The position numbers and the translations under genes are program-made. Below are positions 11,387-19,934 of a DNA stretch of 21,127 bases, piece by piece (position 1 is the first letter of the stretch; each line of letters opens with the position of its first letter). The DNA is taken from assembly GCA_003453515.1 (NCBI GenBank), contig DMLD01000133.1:1-21127 (forward strand), read 5' to 3'. The DNA is from Lachnospiraceae bacterium (GTDB taxonomy: Bacteria > Bacillota > Clostridia > Lachnospirales > Lachnospiraceae). The notes under the pieces are model-generated. The model had not been told where the DNA came from. It did not search any database and saw nothing but the letters and a program-made list of their open reading frames with translations.

Positions 11387-12265
11387 TCAATTCATGGAAT
11401 TGAGTGCATCCGTGATACACTTCGCGGGTGCGGAATCTATGATCACATAGTCGATATTTCCGTTGATCATATCCTGACATGCCAGTGACCCGTTCTTGTA
11501 TCCGACGGTCGAGACCGGAAGCTTCTCAAATCCGGCTTCCTCATCTCCCTCGCAGTACATCTTTCCGGTAGTACCGTTTTGCACACCGATCTTTACCGAC
11601 GAATCCTTTGCCATCAGCGCGGCATTTATGGAGGCTGCATCCTTCATGGCATCGAACTCGGTATCATCCCCTTTTACGATAAGTCGCTGGGATGCATTAT
11701 AATAGGGATCTGTAAACTCAACATACTTCCTGCGCGACTCCTTTATCGTGAGACCGCTCATGGCAATGTCGCATTTGTGCTGACCTATGGAAAGGCAGAC
11801 AGCATCAAAATCCATGTTCTGTATGACAAGCTCCTTGCCAAGCTTCTTGGCAAGAGCATCAGCTATCTCCATATCGATACCGAGGTACTTGTCACCCTTG
11901 GTATACTCAAACGGCTCGAAGCCCGCGTTGGTTGCCACAACGAGCTGATCCTTTGATTCATCCGGTGCAGCGGATGTGACCGCTACCGGCTCCCCATCAC
12001 CGAAATAGTGATTGCATATCTCGTCAAACTTACCGTTAGATACTATCTCCTTGATAAAATCGTTGGTTTGTTTAAGCAGCTCCGGCTGATCCTTGTCTAC
12101 GCCAAAGGCATACTCCTCACTTGAAAGGTCGACATCGATCACCTTAAGCGCTTTACCTGAGGTTTCTCCCTGATCCTTACCTTCCGAGCCTCCGCATCCT
12201 GTCATAAGCATCACACTCATCAGCGCCATAAGCATGATGGCGCCTGTCTTTTTTAATACTTTCAT
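11387..12265 (-). CDS. Amino acid-binding lipoprotein with circularly permuted SBP_bac_3 domain
   Basis: Substrate-binding lipoprotein of the adjacent importer, 292 residues. Signal peptide MKVLKKTGAIMLMALM... ends at a lipobox MTGC (Cys24). The domain order is unusual. Residues about 39-92 (KVIDVDLSSEEYAFGVDK, then LLKQTNDFIKEI, then GKFDEICNHYFGDG) are what normally ends an SBP_bac_3 protein. Residues about 107-292 are the usual beginning and middle: LVVATNAGFEPFEY, GIDMEIADALAKKLG, MDFDAVCLSI, DIAMSGLTIKESRRKYVEFTDPYY, KIGVQNGTTG, DYVIIDSAPA. The protein stops at ALNSMN, just where the moved piece should follow. Total domain length (about 240) equals one domain, not two. The frame is open to 12346, but ATG 12265 has GGAGG 8 bases upstream and gives a proper signal peptide. 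A strong promoter lies upstream. Confidence 0.93.
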   Translation of the reverse strand: MKVLKKTGAIMLMALMSVMLMTGCGGSEGKDQGETSGKALKVIDVDLSSEEYAFGVDKDQPELLKQTNDFIKEIVSNGKFDEICNHYFGDGEPVAVTSAAPDESKDQLVVATNAGFEPFEYTKGDKYLGIDMEIADALAKKLGKELVIQNMDFDAVCLSIGQHKCDIAMSGLTIKESRRKYVEFTDPYYNASQRLIVKGDDTEFDAMKDAASINAALMAKDSSVKIGVQNGTTGKMYCEGDEEAGFEKLPVSTVGYKNGSLACQDMINGNIDYVIIDSAPAKCITDALNSMN

Positions 12266-12325
12266 CTTTTTTTCCTCCATTATTTTCCTTGAAGATACAT
12301 GCATCCGAAATTCCGAATGGTAACA

Positions 12326-13968: not shown

Positions 13969-16488
13969 TCATCCCATGTATGACATAAACCTGTTGCCGT
14001 TATTTTTGAAAAATTCCTCGAACTTTGTCCTGCTCACAGTCCGCTTTCCGACATCGGGATCGTATATCACAAGCTCCTTTAACGTGTAGCCCGCGATAAC
14101 CACTCCCTTGTTGTCATATGTCATCGCGATCACAGGCTTGTTGTTGCTGACAAAGTATATGACCTGATCAAGCGTACACCCCTTGAGGTTCAGCGGATGC
14201 GCTATGTTTTCCTCCAGCATCTCATAGGGCGTCATCTTGGTCGCCGTCAGCACCTGAGGTGAGATATTGTTATCAGCGGCTACCTGGAGTATCATCGATG
14301 CGCACGCCGCGAGATTTGACACGTTGTTTCCGGTTTTGATAAGAGTTATATCACCTATATTGTTTTGGTTGAATGCTCCGCTTCTCTCCCATACGACCTT
14401 GTGGTCTCCGGATATGACAACTCCCATCTGCGCATCCGCCTCCTTGATCGCCTTTCTGACATCCTCATACGACTTGGTGATCCTTCCGTTCGCGGATACA
14501 TAATAGTTCATGACCTTGGGCGGCTCCAGCCTGACCATGCGGTTATTTGTCCTGATGTACTCTGGCGCGGTCACCTCCTTCGGCTTTGCGGGTATGGTAA
14601 AGGTCGACGGGAACTTTATATACCACTCGGTCAACGACTTTGTTGTAAGCCTTGATGTGTACGAGAATTTGGACGCCTGTATGGACGATCTGTTTAGTAT
14701 CGAATCCTCGCCGGCATTTTTGTAGCTGTCTCCCGACTTCTTGCACAGCTTGATCGTCACCACGTTTCCGGATCCGACTGCATTTTTCACGTAGTAGCCT
14801 TCGTTCTCATAGGTTTTTACGACCTCGCCCGACGTGTCTGATATCAGAAGCTTGTAGCAGGGTATGATCCTCGTTCCGTCAGCCTGTTTCTTGATATCAT
14901 TTTTATGTACATAGCCGTACACCACATTGCTTTCTATAGTGCCCAGCAGTCTTATGTAGGAGTCCTCATCGGGCGACTGTATGAGCTGATGCTCGTCGTT
15001 TTCGAGATTGTATATGGTTATGCTTTCACCGTACCCTCTGGTGAGCGAGGATGACCATACATAACAGTTGGAATTCTCCATGGTCTTAAACGAGATATCC
15101 TTTACATTTTGCTGGAGTACCTCGAGTCGCCCGCCTGAGATGTTGTATGCGTATACGGTATTGGCAACGGTGAAATAAAATACGTCTCTCGGACTTACGT
15201 AGCTGTAGTTTTCAAAGTCAACACTCAGCTGTCTGTACGAGGTATCCATGGGAAGATTTACCAGCTCTTCGAGCTCTCCCTCTGTCGTATATCTGTACAG
15301 AGCGATCCCGACATCGCCCTCATAGGCGCCTCTGGGCTGATATCCGACTACACAGAAGAACAGGGCGTCGCTTTCATCGACCGCCACAAGCCTGATATCA
15401 TTTTCATTGTAGGATCTTCTCAGATAGTCTGCATCCTCACTGTATATACTGTATAGAACATGCACCGTGTTGGATGACATATCGTAAAAATAAAGCTTTC
15501 CGTTTCTCGAATAATAAAGACCCTTTCCGTCCTTTGTCGGAAGAAGCTTTCCGCTTGTTTTGTTTGTTATGCCGAGCTTCAGCTGAGAGCCCGCAACGTT
15601 GGTCATCTGCACATCGTACTCAGCCTCCATCGTTCTCTCGAAGGCGAGCAAATAGTTGCTTCCCGATGCATGTCTGACGCGATAAAACTCTTTTATCTGA
15701 TAGTTCTCCGTCCCCGACGCGGTGTTGGCGCGCACAAAATAATTGTACTGCACGCACGCCGTCTCCATATTGTATTCCTTGATGGTTATATACTCATCCG
15801 ATATTATCTTCGGAGACATCCCCGCCCATGTTACAAGATCGGAGCTCGAGCCTATATTTACCCTCGCAAGCGAAGAATTCCTGTTGTTGAGATCGGGCTC
15901 AAGATACTTTGCGATCTCCTCCACCTTGCTCTTTTTGAAGGTATTATCATGAAATTCCTTTACAAATGCAAGCTTGTCATCGAGTCCCGAATCATCCATA
16001 TACAGCTTGATCCTCGTATAGTAGTGGACCTCTCTTCCGTCCGAGAGCACCCCCGAGAGATCCATGATATACTCGGTCGATGTCAGCATCGCATAAGACA
16101 ACACAAGCCTTACCTCTCTTTGTTCCGAGGTAAAGCCCTTCACTGTCTGTGTATCGTATACTTCCCCTGTTTCCTTATCTATGATCCTGTAGCCAAGCTC
16201 CGTCAGATAGGTATCAGCCTCACTTATGTGAATCGTCATGGTCTTTTTTTCATCAAGAGGGGTCATGGACTCCCTTATGACACCGACCGTGAGCGGCGCA
16301 TTGTAACCATACAGAGGATTGATCGTATGTCCTCCGGTCTCGACCATAAGTATCGGAAAGGTTTCCTTGCTCAGGCTCTGCGGATCAGCCTCGACCTCAT
16401 ACGAGGTCGTCATCCTCTGTCCGAAAAACAACAGCGCTCCCGCAAATACGATCAAAAGCCCGACTGCCTTATAAATGATCTTTGCCAT
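13969..16488 (-). CDS. Membrane-anchored extracytoplasmic protein: beta-propeller-like region plus degenerate C39/papain-like domain
   Basis: 839 residues, not assignable to a named protein. One N-terminal helix (about 7-23, AVGLLIVFAGALLFFGQ) without a lipobox anchors it with the bulk outside the cell. Residues about 45-170 look like a beta-sandwich. Residues about 300-570 hold repeated beta-strand units such as GLYYSRNGKLYFYDMSS, DVFYFTVANTVYAYNIS and ESITIYNLENDEHQLI, typical of a propeller. Residues about 720-839 resemble a C39-like peptidase: NLAACASMILQVAAD (Cys729), NKPVIAMTYDNKGVVIAGY, LVIYDPDVGK and KFEEFF. The position of the usual catalytic His (GHxVVIxGY) is Lys794, so it is probably inactive or binding only. 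ATG 16488 is preceded by AAGGAAG. The gap to the upstream EAL gene is 11 bases, so it belongs to the cyclic-di-GMP operon. Role unknown. Confidence 0.85.
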   Translation of the reverse strand: MAKIIYKAVGLLIVFAGALLFFGQRMTTSYEVEADPQSLSKETFPILMVETGGHTINPLYGYNAPLTVGVIRESMTPLDEKKTMTIHISEADTYLTELGYRIIDKETGEVYDTQTVKGFTSEQREVRLVLSYAMLTSTEYIMDLSGVLSDGREVHYYTRIKLYMDDSGLDDKLAFVKEFHDNTFKKSKVEEIAKYLEPDLNNRNSSLARVNIGSSSDLVTWAGMSPKIISDEYITIKEYNMETACVQYNYFVRANTASGTENYQIKEFYRVRHASGSNYLLAFERTMEAEYDVQMTNVAGSQLKLGITNKTSGKLLPTKDGKGLYYSRNGKLYFYDMSSNTVHVLYSIYSEDADYLRRSYNENDIRLVAVDESDALFFCVVGYQPRGAYEGDVGIALYRYTTEGELEELVNLPMDTSYRQLSVDFENYSYVSPRDVFYFTVANTVYAYNISGGRLEVLQQNVKDISFKTMENSNCYVWSSSLTRGYGESITIYNLENDEHQLIQSPDEDSYIRLLGTIESNVVYGYVHKNDIKKQADGTRIIPCYKLLISDTSGEVVKTYENEGYYVKNAVGSGNVVTIKLCKKSGDSYKNAGEDSILNRSSIQASKFSYTSRLTTKSLTEWYIKFPSTFTIPAKPKEVTAPEYIRTNNRMVRLEPPKVMNYYVSANGRITKSYEDVRKAIKEADAQMGVVISGDHKVVWERSGAFNQNNIGDITLIKTGNNVSNLAACASMILQVAADNNISPQVLTATKMTPYEMLEENIAHPLNLKGCTLDQVIYFVSNNKPVIAMTYDNKGVVIAGYTLKELVIYDPDVGKRTVSRTKFEEFFKNNGNRFMSYMG

Positions 16489-16499
16489 ATCCTACTTCC

Positions 16500-17966
16500 T
16501 TACGAAAAAGCCAGCTTCTCGAATTCGTTGACCGAAAGCGGCTTAAAAAATACATAGCCCTGTATCAGGTCACAATTCATATCACGTAAAAACTCCACCT
16601 GCTCGGTTATCTCGACACCCTCCGATACCGTCTTTAGATCAAGCGCCTGCGCAAGCCTTATCACGCTCTTGATGACATCCTTCCCTCTCTTGTCATCCTC
16701 GCTGCTCTTGAAAAATACTCTGTCGAGTTTGAGCGTGTCGACCTTCACATCCTTCAGCATATTCAGCGACGAGTAACCGCTTCCGAAATCGTCGATGGAG
16801 CAGGTCATACCGAGCTTATGTATCCTCGACACCAAATCGTTGAGCGCATCAAGATCGTTGTAAAACAGCGACTCGGTAAGCTCTATCTCGATAGACCCCG
16901 GCGGTATGTCATACTTCTCGTATATCGCCTCATAATACTCAAAAAAATCCGGTACCTCAAAGTGACATCTTGACAGATTTACCGAGACCGGTATCTGTCT
17001 GTAGCCCAGTGTGTTCCATCTGTCCACCATCTTGCAGACCTCTTCGAACATAAATATATCTATATTTATAACAAAGCCGTTCTGCTCGAAAAGAGGAATA
17101 AACTCATTGGGATATATCATTCCCTCCTCGGGATCCATCCATCTTATAAGCGCTTCCGCTCCCGCGATCCTGTCATTCGCAAGGTCGACCTTGGGCTGCA
17201 GGAAGGGGATAAAGTGTCCTCTCGCCATGGCGGTGTGCATCTTCTGCTCCAGGTCGCGATCCCTGTTCATCCGCTGGCGATCCTTGTCATCATATATACC
17301 GAGCGGCACGCGGTAGTTGTTGAACGAGATATTTTTCCTGCCGAGATTCGCCCTCTCCAGCATGGCTCCGACCTCGAGATCCTCCGCCGGGTCGATCACG
17401 TATACTCCATAAAACATGACGATGCCGTACGGTATGCCTTCCTTGTCAGAGAGCTCGGCAAACCTGTCGGATATCTTTTTAAGCCTCTCGTCCAGCTTAT
17501 CTATATCGAGATAGTGCATGAGTATGCCGAAGTTGTCCGCCATCAGACGCCCCGAGACCTCGTCCCATCCAAGCTCGCTGTCGATGATGCGCTGAATGCT
17601 TCTAAGTATTGAATCCCCCTCGGCGTCTCCGTAGGTATCGTTGATAAGCTTGAACCTGTCGATGTTTGCATGAACCATGACAAATGAATGGTTCGTGCCG
17701 ACGATGTTTTTGGCAAGCCTCTCAAACTGCTTACGGTTGTTGCCCCCGGTCACATCATCCCTTCCGAACTGTCTGTATATGAGAAGATACTTGGTAAAGA
17801 GTATGGCAACAAACGCACCTGCCGCGATGATCAGCACGACCACGCGCATGTACAAGTCACGCCCCTCCAGCCAGTATAACAACAGTAATAAAAATACCGC
17901 AGCCACCACAAGATCAGCCAGCAGCATAAAACCGATCATTTTTATCTTCTGTAAAAATACCCTCAT
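16500..17966 (-). CDS. Membrane-anchored cyclic-di-GMP phosphodiesterase with degenerate GGDEF and intact EAL domain
   Basis: 488 residues: two N-terminal helices (about 11-33 and 41-64) with a very short external loop, then GGDEF (about 68-225), then EAL (about 235-485). In the GGDEF domain the signature is MADNF (142-146) and the metal Asp of the LDIDxFK motif is Asn101, but DRFKLINDTYG is kept, so it cannot be expected to make cyclic-di-GMP and may bind GTP. The EAL domain has every key residue: Glu271 (EAL), Asn330, Glu362 (ELTES), Asp392-Asp393 (DDFGSGYSS), Lys413, Glu449 and Gln469. It should hydrolyse cyclic-di-GMP to pGpG. ATG 17966 has AGAGG 10 bases upstream; the gap to the other EAL gene is 18 bases. 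The short periplasmic loop suggests that signals come from a partner protein or from the GGDEF domain. Confidence 0.95.
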   Translation of the reverse strand: MRVFLQKIKMIGFMLLADLVVAAVFLLLLLYWLEGRDLYMRVVVLIIAAGAFVAILFTKYLLIYRQFGRDDVTGGNNRKQFERLAKNIVGTNHSFVMVHANIDRFKLINDTYGDAEGDSILRSIQRIIDSELGWDEVSGRLMADNFGILMHYLDIDKLDERLKKISDRFAELSDKEGIPYGIVMFYGVYVIDPAEDLEVGAMLERANLGRKNISFNNYRVPLGIYDDKDRQRMNRDRDLEQKMHTAMARGHFIPFLQPKVDLANDRIAGAEALIRWMDPEEGMIYPNEFIPLFEQNGFVINIDIFMFEEVCKMVDRWNTLGYRQIPVSVNLSRCHFEVPDFFEYYEAIYEKYDIPPGSIEIELTESLFYNDLDALNDLVSRIHKLGMTCSIDDFGSGYSSLNMLKDVKVDTLKLDRVFFKSSEDDKRGKDVIKSVIRLAQALDLKTVSEGVEITEQVEFLRDMNCDLIQGYVFFKPLSVNEFEKLAFS

Positions 17967-17984
17967 CTTACAAAAACCTCTGCC

Positions 17985-19934
17985 CTATGAATAATAAGGA
18001 TTGATCAGGCGCTTCTCAAACTCTTCCCTTGTAAGCGGTCTGTCGAACAAAAAGCCCTGCGCCATGGTACAGCCAACCCTTTTCAAAAAATCGACCTGTT
18101 CCTCGGTCTCAACACCCTCACACAAAACATGGCGGTTGAGATCGTGGATCATACGAACGATATTCTCGACCATCTTCTCCTCCTTGGGATCAGCCTGATC
18201 CCTCAAAAATGTACGGTCGAGCTTTATCACATCCATGTCTATATCACGAAGCAGTGAAAGCGATGAATATCCTGTTCCGAAGTCATCCATCGATGTATGG
18301 ATCCCTGCCTCTCTCATCTCCGATACGAAATAAACAAGTGCGTTCAGATCCTCGTAGCCCGATGACTCGGTAAGCTCCGCCTCCAAATAGTACGGATCAG
18401 CCCCGTATTTGTCGACCACCGAGAGCACATCCTTTGCAAAATCCTTGTTGTGAAGGTGAAGCTTGGAGAAGTTCGACGAGACCCTCACGGGCTGTATCCC
18501 TCTTCTTTGCCAGTCACCTATATCCCTGCACACTCTCTCGAACACATAGAAGTCAAGCTCCTGGACCTTTCCGTCGTTTTCGAGCACCGGGATAAATGAG
18601 CCCGGCGGAACAAGCTCGCCGTTTTTGATCCATCTTACCAACGCCTCACAGCCGCAAAGCGTACGCGTTTTCAGGTTGACCTTCGGCTGATAATAAACGA
18701 CAAATTCCTCCTCGTCTATCGCCTTGTGATATCCGCTTATGATCTCCTTGCGCCTTATCATCTCATCGCGGCGCTCCTGCCTGAACCAGACGTAGTCTCC
18801 GGTTCCGGAGAGTCTGGTCTCGTCTACCGCGATAAGTCCCGCGTTGATGGCATCGTAGATCGTATCGCCGGGATTTATCTGATAGATCCCGCACCTTGTC
18901 GTAAGAGTCAAACCCATCTTCTCTCCGACCTCTACGGGAACCTTCTCTATCTGCGATAAGAATTCATCCACGTGCTCCTTTTCGACAAGCGCTATGAAGT
19001 TATCGCCGCCGTTTCTGGCAAGCACCTCACCCTTATTCAGTCTGTCGTTCAGATACTTTGCATAGCCTTTGAGCACGAGGTCTCCTATGAGCGAGCCGTA
19101 CTCCTGGTTGATAAACTTGAAATCCTTTATCGATATCGCAAGTCCCGAATACATATCGAGTCTGTTGCGTCTTCTGCTTCTCGACATCCTCTCTCCGACA
19201 CGTATCATCTGGTCGAAGTTGGCAACCCCGGTGAGAAGGTCTCTGCTTATCATCTCGTTTGATATTCTCACACAGTATGATACATTGAACAGCGCTGCCA
19301 GTACGAGTGCCGCGAGTATCATCCTTGCGATGATACGCATGAGCTCGGTATTGCTCTTCATGTCGGACTTAAGCTCCGAGATATCTCTTTGAAGTATCTC
19401 GTCCATATTTTTAACGTGCTTGTTCATCCCGTTTACTATGGGTTCGAGCTTGGTCTGCATATAGTAGTGGGCTGTCTGCTCATCACCCTCCTGACTCAGC
19501 TCAACGACCATCTTGACATTTTTCATATAGGAGGTCATAAGGGAGAACATATCGTGGTATCCCGCCTCGTACTGAGTTCCGTGCACGTTCTCCTCAAATC
19601 TCTTCATGTTTTCCTTGAGGACGTTCTCGATCTCCCCGGCACGCTTTATCAGTTCCGATTTTCTGTCGGGCTTTTGCTCTGCCATATGATGAAAAATGAT
19701 CGCCTGGTGCTCATACACGCTGACCATGACCGCATCCATCATCTCGATATCCTTGTAATCAACATCTATTATCTTGTTATAATTGTCTATAAGATTACTC
19801 GTGTTGAGATAGGTAAGCTCTATGGTTAGGATCGAAAAAAGAGATGATATGATGGTAATAAAAGCTATCCGAAGAGATAATCTGTTCCGGCGGAATACTA
19901 TATTCTTTGCTTTCCTTGACTTAGCCTGACTCAT
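17985..19934 (-). CDS. Sensor cyclic-di-GMP phosphodiesterase: extracytoplasmic helical bundle, degenerate GGDEF, intact EAL
   Basis: 649 residues. Helix 1 (about 21-43), an all-helical extracytoplasmic region (about 44-200) of four-helix-bundle type as in chemoreceptors, helix 2 (about 201-222), GGDEF (about 230-385) and EAL (about 395-645). The GGDEF signature is GGDNF (309-313) and the metal site LDIDxFK reads ISIKDFK, so diguanylate cyclase activity is unlikely. EAL keeps Glu430, Asn488, Glu520, Asp550-Asp551 (MDDFGTGYSSL), Lys571, Glu606 and Gln626, as expected for an active phosphodiesterase. ATG 19934 overlaps the stop codon of the preceding solute-binding lipoprotein gene as ATGA, which points to coupled translation and a functional pair. 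The external bundle could contact that binding protein. The EAL halves of this and the next gene are clearly related, suggesting an old duplication. Confidence 0.95.
   Translation of the reverse strand: MSQAKSRKAKNIVFRRNRLSLRIAFITIISSLFSILTIELTYLNTSNLIDNYNKIIDVDYKDIEMMDAVMVSVYEHQAIIFHHMAEQKPDRKSELIKRAGEIENVLKENMKRFEENVHGTQYEAGYHDMFSLMTSYMKNVKMVVELSQEGDEQTAHYYMQTKLEPIVNGMNKHVKNMDEILQRDISELKSDMKSNTELMRIIARMILAALVLAALFNVSYCVRISNEMISRDLLTGVANFDQMIRVGERMSRSRRRNRLDMYSGLAISIKDFKFINQEYGSLIGDLVLKGYAKYLNDRLNKGEVLARNGGDNFIALVEKEHVDEFLSQIEKVPVEVGEKMGLTLTTRCGIYQINPGDTIYDAINAGLIAVDETRLSGTGDYVWFRQERRDEMIRRKEIISGYHKAIDEEEFVVYYQPKVNLKTRTLCGCEALVRWIKNGELVPPGSFIPVLENDGKVQELDFYVFERVCRDIGDWQRRGIQPVRVSSNFSKLHLHNKDFAKDVLSVVDKYGADPYYLEAELTESSGYEDLNALVYFVSEMREAGIHTSMDDFGTGYSSLSLLRDIDMDVIKLDRTFLRDQADPKEEKMVENIVRMIHDLNRHVLCEGVETEEQVDFLKRVGCTMAQGFLFDRPLTREEFEKRLINPYYS

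Follow-up and report, generated by a model that had tools for sequence, protein, structure and literature searches.

Ordinary family-3 substrate-binding proteins (SBPs) carry a lipobox and have ATP-binding cassette (ABC) partners. In those of Clostridia (PF00497, SBP_bac_3; GlnH, ArtJ and TmArgBP are type II examples) the chain runs in the order L1N-L2-L1C, where L1N is the start of lobe 1, L2 is lobe 2 and L1C comprises the last hinge strand and the closing helices of lobe 1, with the closing segment last and the tether on lobe 1. A 292-residue lipoprotein encoded on contig DMLD01000133.1 of a Lachnospiraceae bacterium (21,127 nucleotides, the whole stretch analysed and called the window below) has the same three segments and the same ligand backbone residues, whereas its order is L1C-L1N-L2 (type A). 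Judged by its sequence it is a circularly permuted family-3 SBP, and the swapped order bears out the circular permutation proposed in a first-pass annotation of the DNA.

Natural permutants are already known among SBPs that bind betaine or glucose. Treponema pallidum TpMglB-2 (Tp0684), classed as 'Type Ic / Cluster Bc', is described as a natural circular permutant and ABC-importer lipoprotein that binds glucose and changes conformation, with a topology that its authors place in Gram-positive bacteria also (PMC4990184). Natural circular permutation is common to TpMglB-2 and the window protein, but TpMglB-2 has a type I fold, whereas a Pfam scan of the window protein to E 1 returned PF00497 and PF10613 only and no type I family. 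We take PF00497 to be a type II family. For type II SBPs, circular permutation has been described in the CPSARST paper among the glycine betaine-binding proteins 2b4l, 1r9l and 1sw1 (PMC2395249). The order of OpuAC (2b4l, Bacillus) is matched by a second permuted form among relatives of the window protein (type B, L2-L1C-L1N), a model of which aligns with OpuAC in sequence order (residues 27-270, 212 aligned, 17% identical). The window protein differs in being cut at the other crossing between the lobes, and the OpuAC group has betaine as its ligand. OpuAC is not among the best 50 structural matches listed for the window model, which does not exclude a likeness; the recognised entries there are SBPs, receptor domains and dehydratase fusions. 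A natural source of the swapped junction is provided by GlnPQ (6h30), in which the end of substrate-binding domain (SBD) 1 and the start of SBD2 align, across their boundary, with window-protein residues 51-212, although GlnPQ consists of two ordinary full domains fused to a permease. A literature search (titles and abstract openings; subscription papers mostly outside its reach) gave, among the papers listed, no permuted PF00497 or family-3 amino acid binder, and within the literature searched such a protein is new.

Segment order of the window protein

Thirteen ordinary relatives were each cut in three and one profile hidden Markov model (HMM) was built per segment. While the 13 source proteins score L1N-L2-L1C by construction, all 43 ordinary rows outside the profile set also read L1N-L2-L1C (including 20 of 20 loci, L192-L211). 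On the window protein the L1C model matches residues 40-89 (41.0 bits, 8.4e-12), the L1N model residues 105-197 (103 bits) and the L2 model residues 222-287 (57.3 bits), so that the chain reads L1C-L1N-L2 and not as a continuous L1N-L2-L1C domain. Comparison of 4zv1, an ancestral Arg/Gln-binding protein, with a profile of 35 relatives gives two swapped pieces, window residues 105-281 corresponding to 4zv1 chain 9-171 and residues 35-90 to chain 178-233, the end of the chain. Both comparisons agree with the earlier reading of a closing segment directly behind the lipobox and a protein that ends where that segment belongs, and the limits then given (39-92 and 107-292) are correct to within a few residues.

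Permutation explains why PF00497 matches such proteins in split form; on the window protein it scores 110 bits (cut-off 26.4) in two stretches. The best full-length NCBIfam model, TIGR01096, pairs residues 96-281 with positions 14-184 of 250 (113 bits, below cut-off). Because this match stops at position 184, residues 107-292 alone are not a complete domain; the first-pass annotation had named a complete profile match there as incompatible with permutation. With the L1C profile the N-termini of 100 type-A proteins score 35.4-83.5 bits, compared with at most 9.8 bits for 2,000 shuffled versions. That L1C stands first in 190 type-A rows is a consequence of how the rows were named and is not counted as evidence. 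Between the segment models, the gap from L1N to L2 has a median of 12 residues in type A versus 0 in ordinary proteins, and the old ends are connected by short linkers (medians of 12 residues in type A and 15 in type B).

Spread of type A and a second permutation

Among the nearest 120 proteins (the best of 7,747 hits), 118 are L1C-L1N-L2, the exceptions being a fragment (P0011) and a protein with an exact internal repeat (P0078). A GTDB genome scan with two family motifs gave 442 matches, 426 of them confirmed, and all of the best 80 loci kept are type A; 43 are labelled Lachnospiraceae, 11 Eubacteriaceae and one a Chloroflexota bin, probably mislabelled. In 40 of 397 genomes of the window's family, counting its own, a match reaches E <= 1e-90; divergent matches in G427 and G741 are added to these, and the 37 of these 42 genomes that were read are all type A (L085, L086, L104-L131, L185-L191). 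Type A was found in 11 further families in a class sample of 391 genomes (33 loci, L242-L268 and L269-L274), in keeping with the earlier suggestion of a trait of related gut Clostridia. A phylum sample, in which 14 of 14 hits outside the window's family were ordinary (E <= 1e-30), had suggested confinement of the permuted forms to one bacterial family; this was dropped when type A and type B both turned up in further families of the class sample.

Type B and the fusions with permease and kinase go beyond the first-pass annotation. Type B is found free or fused to a permease. Type A opens at the junction of L2 and L1C, type B at that of L1N and L2. We take these two points to be the lobe crossings of the type II fold; new ends near the hinge had been supposed earlier. 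On that topology, the lipid anchor of type A would enter the second crossing and the chain would end in lobe 2, while in type B the anchor would enter lobe 2 and the first crossing would be the end of the chain, followed by the permease in the fusions. Type-B matches with internal stops were considered as split genes and this was rejected, the frames in the 20 loci read holding all three segments and ending after L1N.

A simple lipobox pattern matches 32 of 35 ordinary rows and, in type B, 96 of 102 rows of free proteins and 8 of 16 fusions; in type A it matches 112 of 157 rows. It disallows internal Cys, which may explain the missed type-A rows. The need for a lipid anchor, an idea put forward in the TpMglB-2 report (PMC4990184) to account for permutation, is not sufficient, since ordinary and free type-B proteins carry the lipobox too.

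One fusion cluster (L158:710-2854 of G626:C17, and P0241) joins a Ser/Thr kinase and a membrane helix (by eye) to a type-A-like permuted SBP outer domain, in which L1C is weak, L1N is clear by profile and L2 is recognised by eye. The cluster is named from Bariatricus sp. and lies on contigs of up to 127 kb. L191 (G565:C4) is a long-branch type A whose frame runs to the contig end; it opens with a membrane-like helix and may be a further fusion of the kinase type. Tandem arrays occur as well. L002:1075-3318 (own genome, G000:C112) encodes 748 residues with, by eye, two tandem type-B-phase SBDs and a permease, the segment profiles finding just its two L1N parts; P0242 (1229 residues) has, by eye, four successive type-B-phase SBD units and a permease, and L152 (G591:C2, 973 residues) has three closely alike ordinary SBD units and a permease.

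Such arrays in both phases offer duplication as a plausible route to permutation, but are no proof of the origin first proposed, a tandem duplication followed by loss of the outer halves. Overlong proteins of the shape that this origin predicts occur in the protein database and are absent among the genome matches listed. With a type-B query 55 of the 120 nearest proteins are overlong (43 L2-L1C-L1N-L2-L1C, 10 L1N-L2-L1C-L1N, 1 L1C-L1N-L2-L1C-L1N and 1 L2-L1C-L1N-L2), and the same shapes are expected if an ordinary gene and a type-B gene are misjoined where their sequences agree. The overlong protein P0134, used as query, matched 186 of the 397 family genomes; among the matches listed (four candidates scored per genome) there was no reading frame of 355-500 residues, and 30 matched loci comprised 21 ordinary and 9 type B. 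For 118 comparable overlong pairs, 3 have a common front only and 8 a common back only, which suggests chimeras, whereas 51 are more than 95% alike at both ends, the form having been recovered more than once, and contigs longer than 20 kb carry 3 of the 55 proteins; both suggest real genes. By their sequences the overlong proteins are perhaps chimeric assemblies rather than permutation intermediates. The main type A and a P0134-like gene share 1 of 40 genomes where 18.7 would be expected, a figure that is confounded by taxonomy and is no proof of replacement.

Number of rearrangements

For 99 proteins (27 type A, 34 type B, 38 ordinary) the segments were aligned separately, put in a common order and analysed with IQ-TREE. 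The tree needs 8 order changes, and its starred branches require no fewer than 5 changes for the ordinary group, 4 for type B and 2 for type A. Type A occupies three positions (the window's group together with the adjoining L265; L185/L186/L266-L271; L272-L274) and type B in five. The ordinary order is widespread over bacteria, suggesting that it is the ancestral state. With this order taken as ancestral, the sequences point to at least two rearrangements in Clostridia (types A and B) and likely three or more, a count to be read with caution for the long branches and the seven approximately unbiased (AU) tests made. We think it probable that the amino acid-binding Venus flytrap of Clostridia was permuted repeatedly, with both cuts at lobe crossings and the hinge as a permutation hot spot, and that the products were adopted as importer receptors, as permease-fused domains and as the outer domain of a Ser/Thr kinase. 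To our knowledge natural circular permutants are usually described singly; recurrence with two distinct cuts is the chief advance over the first reading.

An unlikely alternative is a single event behind all permuted forms, in which a tandem array had its phase later reset by lineage. The permease-fused arrays in ordinary phase (L152) and, by eye, in type-B phase (L002, P0242) speak for such a history, as does the AU test's failure to reject type A as one clade (p 0.27). Against this, types A and B as one clade are rejected in the 99-protein set (p 0.00072) and with an earlier 84-row tree (p 0.0044; 5 changes), type B as one clade is rejected in the larger set (p 0.020, one of the seven AU tests) with p 0.17 in the smaller, and the linkers are unlike in length and sequence between groups. 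The 28 type-B rows outside one divergent set are not rejected as one clade (p 0.295).

Repeated permutation is nevertheless weakened at several points: besides type A not being rejected as one clade, neither A (p 0.14) nor B alone is rejected as a single clade with the 84-row tree, and the main type-A group stands on a long branch. A further point against the main reading is that the gene is patchy, its sole congener covered by the search, G505 (99% complete), giving no match at E <= 1e-25. If repeated permutation is true, each order would set the tether on a different lobe or at the hinge, providing a natural series on tether position in ABC import. With three segment orders in one common receptor family of related bacteria, effects of chain order and of tether placement on folding, closing and transport could be compared, and permuted SBPs would be ready scaffolds for amino acid sensors.

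Proposed function and gene neighbourhood

Thr173, Arg178, Thr232/233 and Asp277, which we take to be the positions holding the amino acid backbone (Arg and Asp in roles as in HisJ/LAO), do not vary in any of the 35 relatives. The lipobox Cys24, the likely residue for lipidation, is equally invariant, and a permease and an ATPase are encoded alongside. Because the backbone residues are conserved and these neighbours are present, the window protein is very probably the receptor of a polar-amino-acid ABC importer, its binding fold permuted at the second of the two lobe crossings. The chain would begin at that crossing and complete lobe 1 from the far end; by way of a short linker it would continue at what was the N-terminus of lobe 1, then cross the first hinge and finish with lobe 2. 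The product would be one ordinary Venus flytrap, which would close around an amino acid and hand it to the permease, with the lipid tether entering beside the hinge and lobe 2 and no longer at lobe 1. The altered docking or lobe closing suggested in the first-pass annotation is hypothetical. By analogy with glucose binding and conformational change in TpMglB-2, the permutation need not harm function.

That the protein is instead a sensor or an orphan binder is very improbable. A related permuted domain forms the outer portion of the Ser/Thr kinase L158 and P0241, whereas the window gene encodes a lipobox and no kinase and lies directly 5' of the permease and ATPase genes, relatives of which are close downstream in 73 of the 75 loci having 2 kb of 3' flank. 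The upstream methyltransferase is kept in just 4 of 67 related loci. The permease scores best with the NCBI cystine permease model, below the cut-off for that name.

More doubtful still is a reading of residues 39-92 as a separate N-terminal domain or the decayed leftover of a neighbouring SBP, with 107-292 as a truncated SBP. The structural alignments among the matches listed, which span 58-292 at widest and none of which covers residues 40-89, lean towards it. They weigh against the permuted fold, as does a predicted template modelling score of only 0.70 for the model of the window protein. L1C itself, on the other hand, is modelled with high confidence, fits the complementary end of the profile and is as conserved as the rest of the protein, with 11 residues invariant in the 35 relatives (Y52, F54, G55, D57, K58, N68, G78, F80, C84, Y87 and F88). 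Just 35 bases separate the SBP stop from the permease open reading frame (ORF), so no closing segment is concealed 3' of the SBP gene. In 11 of the 12 type-A proteins examined, Cys84 (L1C) and Cys157 (L1N) either occur together or are both missing, as a contact between L1C and L1N would predict, although these sequences are related and, judged by eye, the kinase-fused L158 keeps just the first cysteine. Both cysteines are invariant in the 35 relatives, and a contact or disulfide between them is possible, odd as it would be for anaerobes.

We give almost no credence to an assembly error, frameshift or wrong start: the source genome is fragmented and 62% complete, and P0078 with its repeat looks misassembled, but the order recurs in many independent assemblies, including the single-contig genomes G432, G587, G996 and G968, and the window gene has a clean reading frame and a ribosome-binding site.

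Features of the permuted SBP gene and its neighbours (window coordinates)
Feature	Position	Strand	Basis or remark
Circularly permuted family-3 SBP lipoprotein, 292 aa, type A (L1C-L1N-L2)	11387..12265	-	ATG start
Ribosome-binding site GGAGG, 8 bases 5' of ATG	12274..12278	-	read in sequence
Signal peptide and lipobox LMTGC, residues 1-24	12194..12265	-	C24 invariant in 35/35 aligned relatives; model helix 6-21
L1C, residues 40-89, last strand of the hinge and closing portion of lobe 1, now at the front	11999..12148	-	segment HMM and 4zv1 chain end
Linker, residues 90-104, old C-terminus to old N-terminus	11954..11998	-	segment models
L1N, residues 105-197, initial part of lobe 1, with conserved Arg178	11675..11953	-	segment HMM
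Residues 198-221 between matched L1N and L2 parts, about 12 residues longer than in ordinary members	11603..11674	-	segment models
L2, residues 222-292, lobe 2 and new C-terminus, with Asp277	11390..11602	-	segment HMM 222-287
Probable cognate permease, 236 aa	10641..11351	-	PF00528; HEQRo_perm_3TM above cut-off
Probable cognate ATPase, 252 aa	9899..10657	-	PF00005; nearest NCBIfam GlnQ and TcyN, below cut-off

Elsewhere in the window, an 839-residue ORF (13969-16488, minus strand) gave no match in a Pfam search at 1e-8. Positions 16500-19934 (minus strand) encode two adjoining GGDEF-EAL proteins, one of which (17985-19934) has a four-helix-bundle sensor.
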